63,794 nucleotides of DNA, taken from contig JAOPYC010000025.1 in NCBI GenBank assembly GCA_025964795.1, forward strand, positions 1 through 63,794, written 5' to 3'. This DNA comes from Marmoricola sp. (GTDB lineage: Bacteria; Actinomycetota; Actinomycetes; Propionibacteriales; Nocardioidaceae). The notes beneath the pieces were generated by a model. The model was not told the DNA's origin and made no database searches. It was given only the letters and a program-made list of their open reading frames with translations. Below, piece by piece: positions 56,369 through 61,634 of this stretch; position 1 is the first letter of the stretch; each line of letters starts with the position of its first letter. Made by a program: the position numbers and the translations under genes.

Positions 56369-57562
56369 TCACGGGCTCGGCGCGGAGCCCGGCGCCCGTC
56401 TGTCCGGAGCCGCGCTCTCGACCCGCCCCAGGAACCGCAGGGTGACCCGTCGGATCCGGCGCGGCACCGCGCGCGCCACCGCGACCGGCGCCGTTCGAGC
56501 GCTGTTGCCGGCGAAGGTGTCCGGTGGGACCACCGCCACGGCAAGAGTGCGGACGACGTTGGTGGTCCCATGATCGCTGGCCAGGCTGTAGTGCGCGGCC
56601 CGATAGGTGCCGACCCCCGCCGGACGGTGCATCCGGATCGGCTCGTCCTGGGCACGCAGGGCCACGCGTACCGCACTCGCTGCTCGCCGCGGAGAGGCGC
56701 GGCTTCCCTCGGCCCCCGGAGGGAGGCCGAGCGTGGACTCCAGCACGGCCACCGTCGCCTCCTCGACGGGCGCACCGCTCCTCGGGGGCAGCAACGCGGT
56801 CTCGCGCAGCAGCCGGTGCACGTCCACCAGGCTGCGCAGGGACAGCCAGCGGTCCTTGGCGGCGTGCTGGCAGGAATGGTCCAGTGCGTCCGCGAGGCCC
56901 AGCGTCGCGAACGCGGCACCACCGACCTCGACCTCGCTCCGACGCGACCACAGCACGTCGAAGCCGGGCAGCGCGTGCCGTGCAGGGACCAGGCGCCAGT
57001 GCAGGTCCACCCTGCCGAGCCGCCCGTCCAGAGCCAGCTCGCACCCGCCCCAGCGCAGGTAGTGCCACCCGAAGGATCGCTCATCGGTGGGTTGACCGGG
57101 CTGCCTCGACCAGCCCGCACGCTCGAGAGCCTCGACGACACCAGCCACCTCCTCCGGGGCGACCAGCACGTCGATGTCCCCGGCGTCCCGGGCGCTCGAG
57201 TCACCGGTCGTCTGCACCGCCAGGCACGGCCCCTTGAAGAAGATCGCCGGGACGCCGCACCCGTCGAGCACGCGCGCGACCTCGGTCAGGGAGCGCACCT
57301 GGCGAAGGGACCTCAGTCGTGCCCATCGGCGCACCTCGAGGAGGCCGTCGCTCACCTCCGCCGACAGGCCGATGGCGGCGGCCTGCTGGGCGAGCACTGC
57401 GGTGACCCGCTGCCGTCGGGCCGCGGCCAGGAAGTCGACAGCTCCCACGGCGACCGGCGAGGGCAGCACGATTGCCAGGCCGGCCTCGGACTGCAACGCG
57501 AGGCGCGTGGCGTCGCGTACGGCCACGGTGGCCGCCGGACTGGGTCCGGTCGGGACGGGCAT
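56369..57562 (-). CDS. Nucleotidyltransferase-family protein of the lasso/RiPP-associated type
   Basis: A 397-aa protein. The nucleotidyltransferase-5-like core shows FFKGPCLAVQTTGDSSARDAGDIDVLVAPEE. Lys110-Gly111 and the Asp129-x-Asp131 pair form the usual GDxD metal site. HWRLVPARHALPG and LDHSCQHAAKDRWLSLRSLVDVHRLL are further family features. The last ~100 residues are an Arg-rich extension. The start is the ATG at 57562, which has a weak site. Homologous proteins occur in lasso-type peptide clusters beside HPr-kinase-like tailoring kinases. It is the last gene of the minus-strand arm and lies ten bases after the kinase stop. Its substrate, perhaps a phosphorylated peptide, is inferred. 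Confidence 0.78.
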   Translation of the reverse strand: MPVPTGPSPAATVAVRDATRLALQSEAGLAIVLPSPVAVGAVDFLAAARRQRVTAVLAQQAAAIGLSAEVSDGLLEVRRWARLRSLRQVRSLTEVARVLDGCGVPAIFFKGPCLAVQTTGDSSARDAGDIDVLVAPEEVAGVVEALERAGWSRQPGQPTDERSFGWHYLRWGGCELALDGRLGRVDLHWRLVPARHALPGFDVLWSRRSEVEVGGAAFATLGLADALDHSCQHAAKDRWLSLRSLVDVHRLLRETALLPPRSGAPVEEATVAVLESTLGLPPGAEGSRASPRRAASAVRVALRAQDEPIRMHRPAGVGTYRAAHYSLASDHGTTNVVRTLAVAVVPPDTFAGNSARTAPVAVARAVPRRIRRVTLRFLGRVESAAPDRRAPGSAPSP

Positions 57563-57572
57563 CGCCGGCGAC

Positions 57573-58376
57573 CTAGGCCTCACGCGCTCGCCCCGCCACC
57601 AGCTCGATGACCAGATCTGCCAGCACGGCTCGCGTCTCGGTCCGCGACGGCCGCTCAACGTCGACCATCGTGACCGAGGACCGGGCCACCTCACCCATGG
57701 TGCGCAGGAAGACCTCGGTGCCGAGCACCGCCCCGGTCATGCTGCTCAGGTAGCGGTTCTCGTGGAGCCCGAGGAAGCGGTCCAACCCGGCTCGCGGTGC
57801 GGAGACGGCCAGCTCCGCCCTCACCGAGCTGAGCAGGACGACGGCCGCCAGCGGGACCGGCGCGTGGACCCACGGTCGGCGTACGACGTCGATGTCATCC
57901 CAGGCCCAGACCGAGTCCGCAGCCGGCAGGCAGTACGGCACTCCCGCCTCGACGACGACCGGCGCAACTCCGTCGGCCACCAGGTCCCAGCCGCGGTCCA
58001 GCAGCTCGGAGACCAGGCTGGATTTGCCGGCCCCTGCGTGACCACAGACGGCCACAGCACCGTCGGGGCCGGCGGCCACGGAGGCTCCGAGCACCGCCAC
58101 ACCACGCATCATCCAGAGGGCGGCCACGGGCGCCGCCAGCAGGTGACGCTCGACCGCAGCGAGACCGGCGCCGCCGGGGGCGTCCTGCACGGTGATCGTG
58201 GCACCGTCCTCCACCAGGTAGTCGGCGACTTCGGGCACGTGCAGCCAGAACCTTCGTCCTTCCGCACGCCACAGGACGCCCGCGTGCCGCGCGGTCGTGG
58301 GGACCCGCACGTCACCTCGGGTCACGACGACGTCGCCCAACCCGGGCGGCAGCGTGTCAGGTCCTGGAGAGGTCAC
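57573..58376 (-). CDS. HPr-kinase-like P-loop protein 1 (RiPP cluster)
   Basis: A 267-aa protein starting at a GTG that overlaps the B2 stop as GTGA. Walker A is CGHAGAGKSSLVSELL (residues ~111-120). The segment that in HPr kinases reads LVADD here is LVADGVAPV (residues 133-139), so the second Asp is replaced by Gly and catalysis may be weak or altered. The N-terminal part (FWLHVPEVADYLVEDGATITV) is similar to the cap of peptide-tailoring kinases. Related kinases phosphorylate the C-terminal Ser of lasso peptides such as paeninodin. Whether this copy is active or a regulatory partner of the second kinase is open. Confidence 0.8.
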   Translation of the reverse strand: MTSPGPDTLPPGLGDVVVTRGDVRVPTTARHAGVLWRAEGRRFWLHVPEVADYLVEDGATITVQDAPGGAGLAAVERHLLAAPVAALWMMRGVAVLGASVAAGPDGAVAVCGHAGAGKSSLVSELLDRGWDLVADGVAPVVVEAGVPYCLPAADSVWAWDDIDVVRRPWVHAPVPLAAVVLLSSVRAELAVSAPRAGLDRFLGLHENRYLSSMTGAVLGTEVFLRTMGEVARSSVTMVDVERPSRTETRAVLADLVIELVAGRAREA

Positions 58377-58819
58377 GCGGGTGAGACCCGGTAGGACGCG
58401 ACCATGGTGAACCGTCGGTGTCCGGCTGCACCGACGAGGATCCGTTCGCCTGCGACGGTCCATGAGTGCGCGTCGTAGCCGTCCTCCTTCGGCGCCAGGC
58501 CGAGGTGTGTCACCGAGCCGAGCCCTCGACGGCGCAACAGCGTCGCGACCGTGAGGGACTGCATCAGGCACGTGCTCTTCCAAGGGGTACGGCGCCCCAC
58601 CGCGCTCACCAGGCGTCCCACGTCGCGGGCCACGGCGAGCTGTTCGTCGTCGAGGGCCGAGGGTTTGGCGTTCCCGCTCTCCCAGCCATGCCAGGCCGCC
58701 ACTCGCCAGAACGGCACGAGGCGGACCTGGAGGAGCGCTGAGACCAGGCCTGCGGCAGCCTCCAGGACCAGCCGTCGCTGGGCCCACGTCAGTCGCCGGA
58801 CGCGCTCGAGGGTCCTCAC
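58373..58819 (-). CDS. Lasso-type B2 leader peptidase (transglutaminase-like fold)
   Basis: A 148-aa protein starting at a GTG (58819) that overlaps the sulfotransferase stop as GTGA. The sequence has the hallmarks of lasso peptide biosynthesis B2 proteins: RRLTWAQRRLVLEAA, PFWRVAAWHGW, the catalytic Cys84 in KSTCLMQSLTVATLLRRRG and the catalytic His118 in GYDAHSWTV. B2 proteins cleave the leader from a precursor held by a B1 recognition protein, here probably the PqqD-like product at 60724-61035. The split B1/B2 arrangement is usual in actinobacteria. The expected cyclase is missing from the neighbourhood. Confidence 0.85.
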   Translation of the reverse strand: MRTLERVRRLTWAQRRLVLEAAAGLVSALLQVRLVPFWRVAAWHGWESGNAKPSALDDEQLAVARDVGRLVSAVGRRTPWKSTCLMQSLTVATLLRRRGLGSVTHLGLAPKEDGYDAHSWTVAGERILVGAAGHRRFTMVASYRVSPA

Positions 58820-59658
58820 GCGGTCTCGAGGTAGCCGAAGCGGCTCATGGTCACTCGGTGCTCGCGCTCCACCAGACGTGCCAGCCCCGGATCCAGCTCT
58901 TCGCGCCAACCGCCTGCGACGCCTCGCCGGAAGAAGCGGTCCGTGCTGCGCATCGGGCGCTCCCGGAACGGGGAGATCGCCTCCTGCTCCTGCAGGCGCA
59001 CGAGGGACGAGTGGTCCACGGCTCTGCGAACTCGGAAATCGTCCGGGTCGTGGCCGGCGAACCTCAGCACCTGGGCGAACACCTCGACCGTCTGCGAGAG
59101 CAGATCCTCGTAGCGAACGACGAGGACGGGGATGTCCAACTGGTCGACCCACGACCGGACGTGGCCGCTCCAGCTGCCCACGCGTTGCGGGAGCTGGAGG
59201 GCAGGGTGCTTGCGGGCCAGTCCGGCGGCGGGATCGTTGATCCGGCGCACCGACCTTTCAGGTGGGATGCCGGCGTGATGCGCGTAGGACACCGCGACGT
59301 CCCGGGGGTCACGGACGAGGTAGACCACGCCCCAGGACACGTCGGCCGGGAAGATCGGCTCTCCGGTGTCGGTGAGCCGGAAGCTGTCGTGCGCCTTGAT
59401 GCGCATAGTCTGCGCGCCCGCTCGGGCCGCGAGCCTGTAGACCTCCGGCCGCAGCCGCTCGACCACGGTCGCCGGGAGGCTGGCCGACCGCACTCCCGCC
59501 GCCTGGTCGAAGAGGTCGCGCGAGCTGCAGATCGGGTCGCCTCCGAGGGCGTTGATATCAGCCGGGAGGGGGGAGTCACCCAGGTAGTTCGTCAGCAGGA
59601 TGCGCAGCCAGGTGTTCCCGGACTTCGGGTAGGACGCCAGCCAGAGAATGTCGCCCAT
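58816..59658 (-). CDS. Sulfotransferase (PAPS-dependent) in the RiPP cluster
   Basis: A 280-aa enzyme and the first gene of the minus-strand arm. The 5'-phosphosulfate loop is LASYPKSGNTWLR (residues 7-19). The 3'-phosphate-binding region is VVYLVRDPRDVAVSYAHH. The conserved RIKAHDSF segment may hold the catalytic His, and the C-terminal FRRGVAGGWREEL corresponds to the RKGxxGDW-like PAPS motif. The fold is complete. It is coupled to the B2 protease gene, so sulfation of the peptide product, probably on a Tyr or another hydroxyl, is the natural hypothesis. Small-molecule or glycan sulfation is the alternative. Confidence 0.87.
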   Translation of the reverse strand: MGDILWLASYPKSGNTWLRILLTNYLGDSPLPADINALGGDPICSSRDLFDQAAGVRSASLPATVVERLRPEVYRLAARAGAQTMRIKAHDSFRLTDTGEPIFPADVSWGVVYLVRDPRDVAVSYAHHAGIPPERSVRRINDPAAGLARKHPALQLPQRVGSWSGHVRSWVDQLDIPVLVVRYEDLLSQTVEVFAQVLRFAGHDPDDFRVRRAVDHSSLVRLQEQEAISPFRERPMRSTDRFFRRGVAGGWREELDPGLARLVEREHRVTMSRFGYLETA

Positions 59659-59782
59659 GGGCCTGAGTATCCACCTCGTCACTGGATCCCGTCCCCGCAC
59701 CGTAGAGTCCGCCTCAGCGGGACAGTCGTCCAGACCGCGGGCGACCCGACCAGCATCTCCCGACGAGCTGAGAGGTCGGATC
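59659..59782. promoter_or_regulatory. Divergent promoter region of the RiPP cluster
   Basis: 124 bases lie between the divergent sulfotransferase (start 59658) and second kinase (start 59783) genes. They must hold the promoters of both arms. I could not pick out convincing -35/-10 pairs or palindromes. No small open frame with a precursor-like sequence was seen here. Confidence 0.4.
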
Positions 59783-60727
59783 GTGCCGGAGTACGAGTGC
59801 TACGGACTGCTGTTGAGGTCTGAGCTCGACCTGCCTGGGCTCCCCAGGTCCGAGCGAAACCCGCCACCCCCCGCGAGCGAGGTGACCGTCGAGCTCCGGA
59901 GCCTGCCTGCGTCACCGGCGGCCGACCTGGTCATGGTCCGCCCAGGGCGGCTGTGGGTGGGCTCGGCGGTGATGAGGCTGCATATCGAGGGTGTGGCGAC
60001 CTACGAGGTGCGTGACGGCCGCCACGTCGTCGTGGATGCGACCCCCGCTGCGCACCCCGACGAGGTGAGGCTCTTCCTGCTCGGCACCTGCCTGGGCGCG
60101 GTGCTCCAGCAGCGGAGGATGCTCGTGCTGCATGGCAACGCCGTCAGGATCGACGACGGCTGCGCGGTGGTCCTCGGGCGCACGGGGGCCGGGAAATCCA
60201 CCGTGTCCGCCGAGTTCGTCCGGCGGGGCCTGGACCTGCTGGCCGACGACGTGGTGCCGGTGGACCATCTGCTGCGTGCGCTGCCCGGCTTTCCGCGGAT
60301 CAAGCTCTGGTCCGATGCAGCCGATCGACTGGGGATCGATGTCAGCGGCCTACGGCGGGTCCGCCCCGAGGATGCGAAGTACGACGTCCCGGTGGGACGG
60401 GGACCGCTGGGGCCGCTTCCCGTGCGCTGGGTCTACGTGCTCGAGAGCTCCGAGGAGCCGCTGCTTCGCCTTGAGACGGCTCGGGGTCTGGCGCGCTTCG
60501 ACGTGCTCCGGGAGCACACCTATCGCTCCGGCCTGCTCCAGGGTCCCGCCCGCGCCCACCATCTCGAAAGATGTCACACGCTGCAGGAGCAGGTGCGACT
60601 GGTGCGCGTGCTGCGCCCCGAGCACACGATGACCCCGGCCGCCACGGCTGAAGCGATTCTCGACGACATCGCCTGCCACCGGTCCGGCCCCGTCCAGCAA
60701 CACCAACAACCCCAGGAGGCACGATGA
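59783..60727 (+). CDS. HPr-kinase-like P-loop protein 2 (RiPP cluster)
   Basis: A 314-aa protein starting at a GTG (59783), with GAGAGGT eight bases upstream. Walker A is VLGRTGAGKSTVS (residues ~132-140) and the HPr-kinase catalytic Asp pair is intact in LLADDVVPVDH (residues 154-156). This contrasts with kinase 1. The N-terminal domain (YECYGLLLRSELDLPGL) and the sequence LVLHGNAVRIDDGCAVV match peptide-tailoring kinases of lasso-type clusters. It overlaps the PqqD-like gene as ATGA. If the 47-aa precursor is real, its terminal Ser is a candidate phosphorylation site. Confidence 0.83.
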   Translation: MPEYECYGLLLRSELDLPGLPRSERNPPPPASEVTVELRSLPASPAADLVMVRPGRLWVGSAVMRLHIEGVATYEVRDGRHVVVDATPAAHPDEVRLFLLGTCLGAVLQQRRMLVLHGNAVRIDDGCAVVLGRTGAGKSTVSAEFVRRGLDLLADDVVPVDHLLRALPGFPRIKLWSDAADRLGIDVSGLRRVRPEDAKYDVPVGRGPLGPLPVRWVYVLESSEEPLLRLETARGLARFDVLREHTYRSGLLQGPARAHHLERCHTLQEQVRLVRVLRPEHTMTPAATAEAILDDIACHRSGPVQQHQQPQEAR

Positions 60728-61035
60728 CCGCCCCAGTGCGCTACGTCCGCTCCATCGGCGCCCTGAGCGTCGAGATCGCCGGTGAGCACGTGATGCTCGG
60801 CCCGCGGATGAACGAGTACTTCGGCTTCCGGGACGTGGCCGCGTTCATCTGGGAGCAGCTCGCTCAGCCACGCACGCTCGATGACCTGTGTGCGGCCGTC
60901 GTGAGCGAGTACGCCGTCGACGACGCGACCTGTCGCCACGACACCGAGGTGTTCCTCGACGAGCTCCTCGAGCAGCGTCTGGGTCAGGTCGAGGGCGAGT
61001 ACCGACTCTCCGACGGCCACATGCAGACGACGTAG
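60724..61035 (+). CDS. PqqD/B1-like RiPP recognition protein
   Basis: A 103-aa protein with the RRE (PqqD-type winged helix) pattern: an initial beta-rich part (LSVEIAGEHVMLGPRMNEYFGF), then VAAFIWEQLAQPRTLDDLCAAVVSEYAVD and TEVFLDELLEQRLGQ. These correspond to the recognition-helix scaffold of PqqD and lasso B1 proteins, which bind the leader peptide and present it to the B2 protease. It is coupled to kinase 2 and lies one base from the tail of the 47-aa candidate precursor gene on the other strand. Confidence 0.85.
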   Translation: MTAPVRYVRSIGALSVEIAGEHVMLGPRMNEYFGFRDVAAFIWEQLAQPRTLDDLCAAVVSEYAVDDATCRHDTEVFLDELLEQRLGQVEGEYRLSDGHMQTT

Positions 61036-61036
61036 C

Positions 61037-61180
61037 TCAGCTGACGTAGATGTCGTCCGCTGCCGGGGTGGGCAGGCTCAGCGTCGCGCGCGCGTCCAGC
61101 CTGATCAGGTGGGGAGCGGCGTACGGCCGGCCCTCCAGCGAGGCGAGAACGGCGTCGGCTGGGTCCGCAGGGAAGCTCAT
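61037..61180 (-). CDS. Candidate RiPP precursor peptide (47 aa) with lasso-type leader motif
   Basis: The ATG at 61180 overlaps the stop of the MmcQ/YjbR frame (ATGA). The product starts MSFPADPADAVLASLEG. Next comes RPYAAPHLIRLDARATL, which fits the YxxPxL leader motif (Tyr20, Pro23, Leu25) recognised by lasso B1 proteins, with a Thr (residue 33) where lasso leaders keep a penultimate Thr. The remainder is SLPTPAADDIYVS. If cleavage follows Leu34, the core has Ser1, Asp8 and Asp9, a Tyr with acidic residues before it and a C-terminal Ser. No ribosome-binding site of its own is visible. The motif match and the location support it, but expression is unproven. Confidence 0.6.
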   Translation of the reverse strand: MSFPADPADAVLASLEGRPYAAPHLIRLDARATLSLPTPAADDIYVS

Positions 61181-61625
61181 GGAGCGACGGTACGCGCCAT
61201 TGCCCGTCCCGGCGCATCGTCGCGCCCACGGATCCAGCGATAGAGCCGTCCGTCGCGGACCTCGACCTCCGTCGGCGGCCTCGGGGTGGGCCGGTCGGCG
61301 AGGTCGTGCAGCATCGCCGGCACGCACATCCGCCAGGCGTCGACGACCAGCTCGCGCATCTCGTCCTCCGGTAGCGCGGGGAGTCGCGCGCACACCCACT
61401 GGTAGCGCAGGTCGCCCTGGGAGGGCAGGAAGAGGATGTCCGGGTCCGAGGCGACCAACCCGTCGCGCTCGGCCTTCGGGTAGCCGAACCCATCGACTGC
61501 TCGTCCTTGGAGAACGCCACGAACACGATCTGCTTGACCTTGAGCTTGGCTCGTCCGCGCACCTCCCGCTCGTAGGCACGGGGCAGCGCGAGCCCGACCC
61601 GGCGTACGGCGTCCGCGGTCGTCAT
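61177..61625 (-). pseudogene. MmcQ/YjbR-family gene with a frameshift
   Basis: The first part (MTTADAVRRVGLALPRAYER to VFVAFSKDEQSMG) and the second part (FGYPKAERDGLVASDPDILF to WIRGRD and the stop at 61177) belong to one MmcQ/YjbR-like protein but lie in different frames. The family normally reads MGFGYPK at the join. Here ATGGGTTCGGC lacks one base near 61488-61490. The rest is well conserved, so this is either a recent mutation or a sequencing error. Such proteins have a double-wing DNA-binding-like fold of unclear function. It follows the MarR gene by nine bases. Confidence 0.75.
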
Positions 61626-61634
61626 CGCCGTGCC

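Follow-up and report, generated by a model that had tools for sequence, protein, structure and literature searches.

Whether a bacterial gene cluster that carries the leader-recognition (B1) and leader-removal (B2) proteins of lasso peptide biosynthesis has to make a lasso peptide is the question raised by positions 56369–61180 of contig JAOPYC010000025.1 from Marmoricola sp. (assembly GCA_025964795.1). The whole 63.8-kb contig (63,794 nucleotides) was analysed and is referred to below as the window. The original prediction, made from the letters of this DNA, had described six proteins in two divergent arms and proposed a peptide that is cleaved and then sulfated and/or phosphorylated. Based on the analysis presented here, we give a probability of about 55% to the reading that this is a cyclase-free cluster for a ribosomally synthesized and post-translationally modified peptide (RiPP), of lasso (paeninodin-like) descent, whose product would be a linear 13-mer phosphorylated at its C-terminal serine and probably glycosylated and sulfated.

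The six proteins were confirmed by their reading frames and by Pfam and NCBIfam. In the order of transcription, the minus arm encodes a sulfotransferase (ST), B2, an HprK-like protein (HK2) and a nucleotidyltransferase (NT), and the plus arm encodes a second HprK-like protein (HK1) and a PqqD/B1 protein. The GTGA overlaps at the ST/B2 and B2/HK2 junctions and the ATGA overlap at HK1/PqqD were present as described. The six-gene content was real and also incomplete, as a seventh gene had gone unnamed: a putative precursor peptide of 47 aa at 61037..61180 on the minus strand, whose start at 61180 coincides exactly with the end coordinate given for the cluster.

Conserved cassette and precursor peptide

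To place the cluster among its relatives, we searched 294 genomes of the family for PqqD, with genome searches scoring the best few candidates per genome. Matches were obtained in 50 genomes, the window's own among them; 39 places were fetched from 38 other genomes (G227 twice), and 11 genomes with weaker matches were left out. Thirty of the 39 places (L033–L062) contain a compact, divergent cassette, which we call canonical, with NT on the minus strand and precursor, B2, HprK and PqqD on the plus strand. Nine of them are from genomes of the window's genus, 19 from genus g6 and two from genus g19. The remaining nine places (L063–L071) are of other types, with the PqqD match not recovered locally in L067 and L071. 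B2 was confirmed in all 30 canonical loci by a profile to which most of the 30 contribute, and an NT homologue, an HK1-type kinase and PqqD are likewise found in every one. A small open reading frame lies between NT and B2 in 30/30 loci, mostly with an AGGAG-like sequence upstream as judged by eye. Its leader has invariant Tyr, Pro, Leu, Leu and Thr residues and its last residue is Ser in all 30, while many of the cores show alternating Asp/Glu–Ile/Leu runs, e.g., DIDIDIDITLGLGS, an unusual amphipathic pattern. A neighbourhood comparison had been set in advance as the refuting test of the original prediction; in 30 of the 39 places, B2 and PqqD stand together and have a conserved short frame beside them, so the assignment to a peptide pathway was not refuted.

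No small frame of the relatives' type was seen between the two arms of the window. The putative precursor gene is instead located just downstream of PqqD and convergent with it. Its leader stretch, YAAPHLIRLDARAT (residues 20–33), has the form YAAPHL...AT-L, i.e., YxxPxL with Thr at position −2, and the peptide ends in Ser. Cleavage is predicted after Leu34 and would leave a predicted core of 13 residues, SLPTPAADDIYVS, which holds the motif DDIY and has Asp at core positions 8 and 9. With a leader matrix built from the 30 relatives and excluding the window, this peptide scored 20.3 bits and ranked first of 108,179 window positions, the second reaching 11.0 bits. In 200 Markov copies of the region, a score of 20.3 bits was never attained. 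The relatives' own leaders scored at least 36 bits, and 18.6 bits was the best that a non-precursor reached when the 39 loci (1,010,299 positions) were scored. The step from Tyr/Trp to Thr comprises 13 residues, equal to that in paeninodin-like precursors of Bacillota such as the one in L118. When six peptides were compared with the NCBIfam lasso-precursor models, none reached the cut-off; sub-threshold PadeA matches were seen for two relatives (21.0 and 11.4 of 27 bits), and the window peptide gave no meaningful match. A full-length precursor profile that included the window peptide matched it at E 8.8e-7 and was discarded as circular.

The cassette would represent a B2-processed, cyclase-free peptide family of Nocardioides-like actinobacteria, covered neither by the precursor models nor by the literature that we found. 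Similar gene sets were also observed elsewhere. The proteobacterial locus L114 (12.7 kb) encodes HK, PqqD and B2, with a weak NT match and no cyclase match, and its leader, YAAPQLIELAVRET, is very similar to that of the window and scored 22.0 bits with the leader matrix. Upstream in the Leucothrix locus L116, no precursor was recognised. Three loci of other Actinomycetota (L201, L202 and L204) have B2, HprK and NT matches and no cyclase match in 14–17 kb, with PqqD matched only in L204.

Absence of lasso-cyclase matches

Lasso-cyclase sequences from L118, L140 and L145, used as queries, gave no match in the window and none in the 30 canonical loci (9–16 kb each). The same three queries did match L063, L064, L066 and L070, PqqD loci of other types within the family. 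As no macrolactam cyclase (C) was found in the window or in the stretches fetched for the canonical loci, identity as a lasso cluster was rejected and lasso biosynthesis does not appear to be the right frame. The original prediction had taken B1 and B2 as the pair that serves lasso biosynthesis; what stands of this is a leader-dependent peptide pathway, and the lasso part is not borne out by the cyclase searches. The window does contain the other hallmarks of a lasso cluster, namely B2, a discrete RiPP recognition element (RRE) of the PqqD type and a YxxPxL leader with Thr at −2. The simplest product would be linear.

The competing explanation, which we regard as improbable, is that the product is a genuine lasso peptide, with a cyclase that either works in trans or dropped out of the assembly. 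It would account for the lasso type of the precursor leader, B1 and B2, and the Asp residues at core positions 8 and 9 could act as ring acceptors, with Asp/Glu at positions 7–9 in 19 of the 30 canonical cores; the assembly (204 contigs, 3.88% contamination) is moreover 92.39% complete. Yet the canonical loci, several of them from single-contig genomes, lack a cyclase match within the 9–16 kb stretches to which the search was limited, 11 of the 30 cores have no acceptor at positions 7–9, and a 13-residue core with a tail of 4–5 residues would be very short for a lasso. Across the genome, Asn_synthase was matched just once, on another contig, in a 619-aa frame that starts with VCGI, which we take to indicate a glutamine-using Asn synthetase.

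Leader recognition and cleavage

Profile searches, proposed with the original prediction as a check, placed B2, PqqD, ST and NT in the expected families, with the HprK-like proteins weak and below cut-offs, and the families concerned are those of RiPP pathways. B2 (58373..58819, minus strand), a transglutaminase-like Cys protease, matched NF033537 with 74.1 bits (cut-off 33) and PF13471 at 2.9e-20, and its Cys and His are conserved in the alignment; a comparison of B2 with PDB sequences gave no match. Neither a SipW-like nor another type I signal peptidase (SpI) was matched by Pfam or NCBIfam among the proteins of the cluster, B2 being present instead.

PqqD (60724..61035, plus strand), the discrete RRE, exceeded the cut-off of PF05402 (67.2 bits; 1.6e-18) and reached just 50.2 of 80 bits with the lasso-specific NF033536. 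Its nearest solved relatives are 9x90 (PbaB1), 5v1u (TbiB1), 9x8z (LppB) and 6jx3 (TfuB1), the names PbaB1 and LppB being those of PMC13381572. According to the same article, the leader Tyr is held in LppB by an Asp, D70, and likewise in an actinobacterial lasso RRE. Asp73 of the window PqqD aligns with Asp in TbiB1 and Gln in PbaB1, and is Asp in 30/30 canonical loci; it may be the counterpart of LppB D70 and, if so, the leader with its Tyr and the RRE would agree.

NT (56369..57583, minus strand) is an uncharacterised nucleotidyltransferase (PF14907, 133 bits; NTP_transf_5, 1.7e-38) with a presumed PsmN/LppN-like role in placing a sugar or nucleotidyl group onto phosphate. Among the cluster proteins, Pfam and NCBIfam revealed no exporter and none was seen by eye directly beside them, no profile search directed at exporters having been made. 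In one relative, L058, ABC-type genes occur at least 6.6 kb beyond PqqD.

An intact and a degenerate HprK-like protein

The original prediction had named two HPr-like kinases. Both proteins are HprK-like, with weak scores for PF07475 (28.9 and 18.1 bits, cut-off 33.3) and for the HPr-rel-A equivalog TIGR04352 (24.1 and 21.3 bits versus 200), and only one of them retains a full set of catalytic residues. HK1 (59783..60727, plus strand) keeps the complete His-Lys-Asp-Asp quartet of PadeK/ThcoK-type peptide kinases, as described in PMC9266682. The kinase alignment covered 29 of the 30 canonical loci, as the L056 kinase could not be cut out cleanly. In the tree, into which 11 of the 30 were entered, HK1 groups with these 11 canonical kinases with support 100/98. 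HK2 (57573..58376, minus strand) retains the Walker A motif (P-loop) and the first Asp, and has lost the catalytic His (LGASV for LHGNA) and the second Asp (ADG for ADD); judged from these replacements, it is probably no working kinase. Its structural model (mean predicted local distance difference test score, pLDDT, 84.8) resembles the folds of phosphoenolpyruvate carboxykinase and HprK, with TM-scores that are modest, 0.3–0.5 by query length. When 391 genomes of the order were searched, no match to HK2 scored above 63.6 bits, compared with 570 for HK2 itself, the stronger ones falling on HK1-type kinases. Orthology between HK2 and the sulfotransferase-adjacent kinases was considered and rejected, as the tree does not place HK2, which sits on a long branch.

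The loss of two catalytic residues and the long branch would also fit a cluster in decay: HK2 would then be a duplicate undergoing erosion, and the precursor, divergent and displaced as it is, would have ceased to serve as a substrate. The gene lying upstream of it, which looks frame-broken, points the same way. We consider such decay unlikely. Each of the seven genes has an open frame and a coding-type GC content at third codon positions (GC3, 0.84–0.90), and the P-loop of HK2 is kept in a fold that is well predicted by the model. In addition, a Thalassobaculum locus (L215) encodes an intact HprK together with one that shows a similar loss (Gln for His, ADG), the degenerate one being directly before a sulfotransferase.

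Sulfotransferase and its pairing with HprK-like proteins

ST (58816..59658, minus strand; PF00685, 7.6e-24) appears to be a PAPS (3'-phosphoadenosine 5'-phosphosulfate)-dependent sulfotransferase. It contains the motifs YPKSGNTW and RDPRDVAVS, which we take to be the 5'-phosphosulfate-binding (5'-PSB)-like and 3'-phosphate-binding (3'-PB)-like motifs, and K-x-H, and the PAPS-binding and catalytic residues are invariant in nine aligned ST sequences. Sequence and predicted fold (mean pLDDT 89.9) both point to the glycopeptide sulfotransferases Teg12, Teg14 and StaL as the nearest solved enzymes, along with many animal sulfotransferases (SULTs); the identity to Teg12 is 24% in the fold alignment. 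Enzymes of the Teg12/Teg14/StaL type sulfate phenolic residues, and their substrates are peptides, although non-ribosomal ones, unlike the predicted ribosomal peptide of the window. The window genome encodes an adenosine 5'-phosphosulfate (APS) kinase. Sulfation of the peptide, as the original prediction had suggested, would be consistent with these features of the sequence.

A coupled sulfotransferase had been called unusual. Among 396 genomes of Actinomycetota, only the ST of the window and that of L206, both of which were in the query alignment, exceeded 350 bits, the next match having 107 bits, so the enzyme type looks rare in the phylum. ST may plausibly have been gained horizontally from a proteobacterial-type source. 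The combination is not unique, since it occurs in at least 10 other loci and has precedents in the literature: HPr kinase and sulfotransferase genes were noted in 2014 in some lasso clusters of anaerobes (PMC4289311), and a sulfotransferase gene in some Firmicutes clusters (PMC8498205).

At least 52 named loci matched the HK1 alignment. A related sulfotransferase directly follows HprK in at least six of the named loci (L115, L136, L137, L138 twice, L140 and L141) and in four plasmid places (L214–L217, the best 4 of 9 matched plasmid records), i.e., in at least 11 places of at least 10 other loci. Nine of these 10 loci have a PqqD match and eight have a lasso-cyclase match. The quartet is kept in 8 of the 11 HprKs that precede a sulfotransferase (L115, L136, L137, both of L138, L140, L141 and L216) and is altered in the other three, with L215 degenerate as described above, L217 having Gln for His and L214 having DE for DD. 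In another actinomycetote, a 601-aa frame (L206:272-2074) encodes a sulfotransferase–HprK fusion, sulfotransferase first and both domains over the Pfam cut-offs, near a PqqD match and a weak lasso-cyclase match. Taken further, an HprK-like protein and a sulfotransferase, adjacent or fused and with the HprK sometimes a non-catalytic guide, could form a recurring module for sulfated and phosphorylated ribosomal peptides, joined here to a cyclase-free, B2-processed family; we offer this generalisation only tentatively.

The same data bear on the possibility that ST and HK2 serve another substrate, such as a glycan or small molecule, and share an operon with B2 by chance. PF00685 enzymes do act on many small molecules, and some of the clusters with a sulfotransferase lack a core Tyr. 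We nevertheless find this explanation rather unlikely, given the GTGA overlaps that join ST, B2 and HK2, the repeated occurrence of related sulfotransferases beside HprK in loci that mostly contain PqqD and cyclase matches, and the fusion in L206.

The residue that would be sulfated is a separate matter. Tyr45 is favoured, as the nearest solved enzymes sulfate phenols and as DDIY is present in the window core, whereas a core Tyr occurs in 0/30 canonical relatives, which have no sulfotransferase. Sulfate on the sugar or on Ser/Thr is a serious contender, although we lean towards Tyr: putative precursors near the sulfotransferase in L215, L216 and L217 lack a core Tyr, and the NT homologue PsmN adds hexose to phosphate (PMC8498205, PMC9266682). 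A general link between core Tyr and sulfotransferase was rejected because the correlation is not clean. The precursor candidates in these loci had been filtered for a Ser end, which deprives their C-terminal Ser of any weight as evidence; L136 and L138 yielded no convincing candidate.

One plasmid locus, L214:3400-7736 (Tistrella mobilis pTM1), contains two precursor-like frames with a core Tyr, an HprK–sulfotransferase–NT series and a second annotated sulfotransferase. No cyclase, B2 or PqqD match was detected in its 12.8 kb, and it perhaps borrows machinery from elsewhere in the genome.

Proposed pathway and comparison with known systems

Based on the gene content, we infer the following steps, their order, sites and function. 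PqqD would bind the Y-x-x-P-x-L leader and present the precursor. HK1 would phosphorylate, and possibly polyphosphorylate, the C-terminal Ser47, and NT would add a hexose or nucleotidyl group onto the Ser47 phosphate. ST would add sulfate, probably with the degenerate HK2 as a non-phosphorylating partner, most likely at Tyr45 in the acidic context DDIY, with Ser/Thr or the sugar as alternatives. B2 would cut one residue after Thr33 and free the linear 13-mer. This order departs from the original prediction, which had placed cleavage first; in the studied relatives, phosphorylation precedes leader cleavage (PMC10368454, PMC13381572). Deletion of lppN, in turn, changed nothing in the test of the linear polyphosphorylated peptides (LPP) reported in PMC13381572.

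Several observations weigh against this reading. When the window peptide was left out of the full-length precursor profile, the profile missed it at E ≤ 10, because the core differs; the 30 relatives have cores of another kind. Inspection by eye showed no clear Shine–Dalgarno sequence before the precursor, and no exporter in or directly beside the cassette in the window and six relatives, whose genes were predicted by composition. HK2 was found in this gene company in no other of the 391 sampled genomes of the order, and ST in no other of the 294 of the family. The absence of a core Tyr in L215–L217 has its converse in several clusters that have a core Tyr and no sulfotransferase.

The closest described systems share parts of the cluster. 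LPP clusters of Bacillota (PMC13381572) have in common with the window a discrete RRE, an HprK-like kinase, an NTP (nucleoside triphosphate) transferase, a Y-x-x-P leader and the lack of a cyclase. In contrast, their leader peptidase is the SipW-like LppS and not a B2 cysteine peptidase, they have an MsbA-like exporter where none was seen in the window cluster, and of their leader YxxPxVLxHQxIxFETxxS the window leader shares the YxxP part only. The window has a much shorter core, an additional sulfotransferase and a second HprK, and belongs to the Actinomycetota, whereas LPP were called restricted to Bacillota in that 2026 article. Paeninodin and pseudomycoidin, phosphorylated or glycosylated lasso peptides (PMC9266682, PMC8498205), share with the window B1, B2, an HprK with the quartet, NT and the C-terminal Ser; the window differs in its core and in having Tyr for Trp, and neither a macrolactam cyclase nor an exporter was seen in its cluster. 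Lasso clusters with a sulfotransferase resemble the window in that HprK stands next to a PF00685 sulfotransferase with PqqD and often B2, and differ from it in the cyclase match found in 8 of the 10 loci observed, proteobacterial cases among them.

Within a literature search that left subscription papers and preprints mostly outside, we found no account of an actinomycetote B2/HprK/NT cassette that lacks a cyclase, and none of a sulfotransferase tested in clusters of this kind. The occurrence of the cassette in at least 30 of the 294 sampled family genomes would extend linear lasso-related phosphopeptides to the Actinomycetota and suggests a use for B2 in pathways without lasso formation. With the HprK–sulfotransferase pairing comes a way to a sulfated ribosomal peptide that can be tested directly; to our knowledge, sulfation of ribosomal peptides is rare among bacteria. 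Because the masses of phosphate (+79.9663) and sulfate (+79.9568) are easily mistaken for each other, products of this kind may have escaped notice.

Gene layout and neighbouring frames

The two arms are separated by 124 bp (59659..59782), presumed from the gene starts to be the promoter region for both, and a longer ST could start from a GTG at 59700. The HK2/NT junction is not a GTGA overlap: HK2 stops with TAG, and the GTG start of NT at 57583 overlaps HK2 by 11 bp, with an alternative ATG start at 57562 after the end of HK2. Elsewhere in the genome, the stronger APS-kinase match and the sole Asn_synthase match are about 8 kb apart on one contig (G000:C112:27829-37593). Directly upstream of the precursor, with an ATGA overlap, is a YjbR-like frame (61177-61626, minus strand; PF04237, E 0.031, below the cut-off) that is apparently split across two reading frames, by either a true frameshift or an assembly error.

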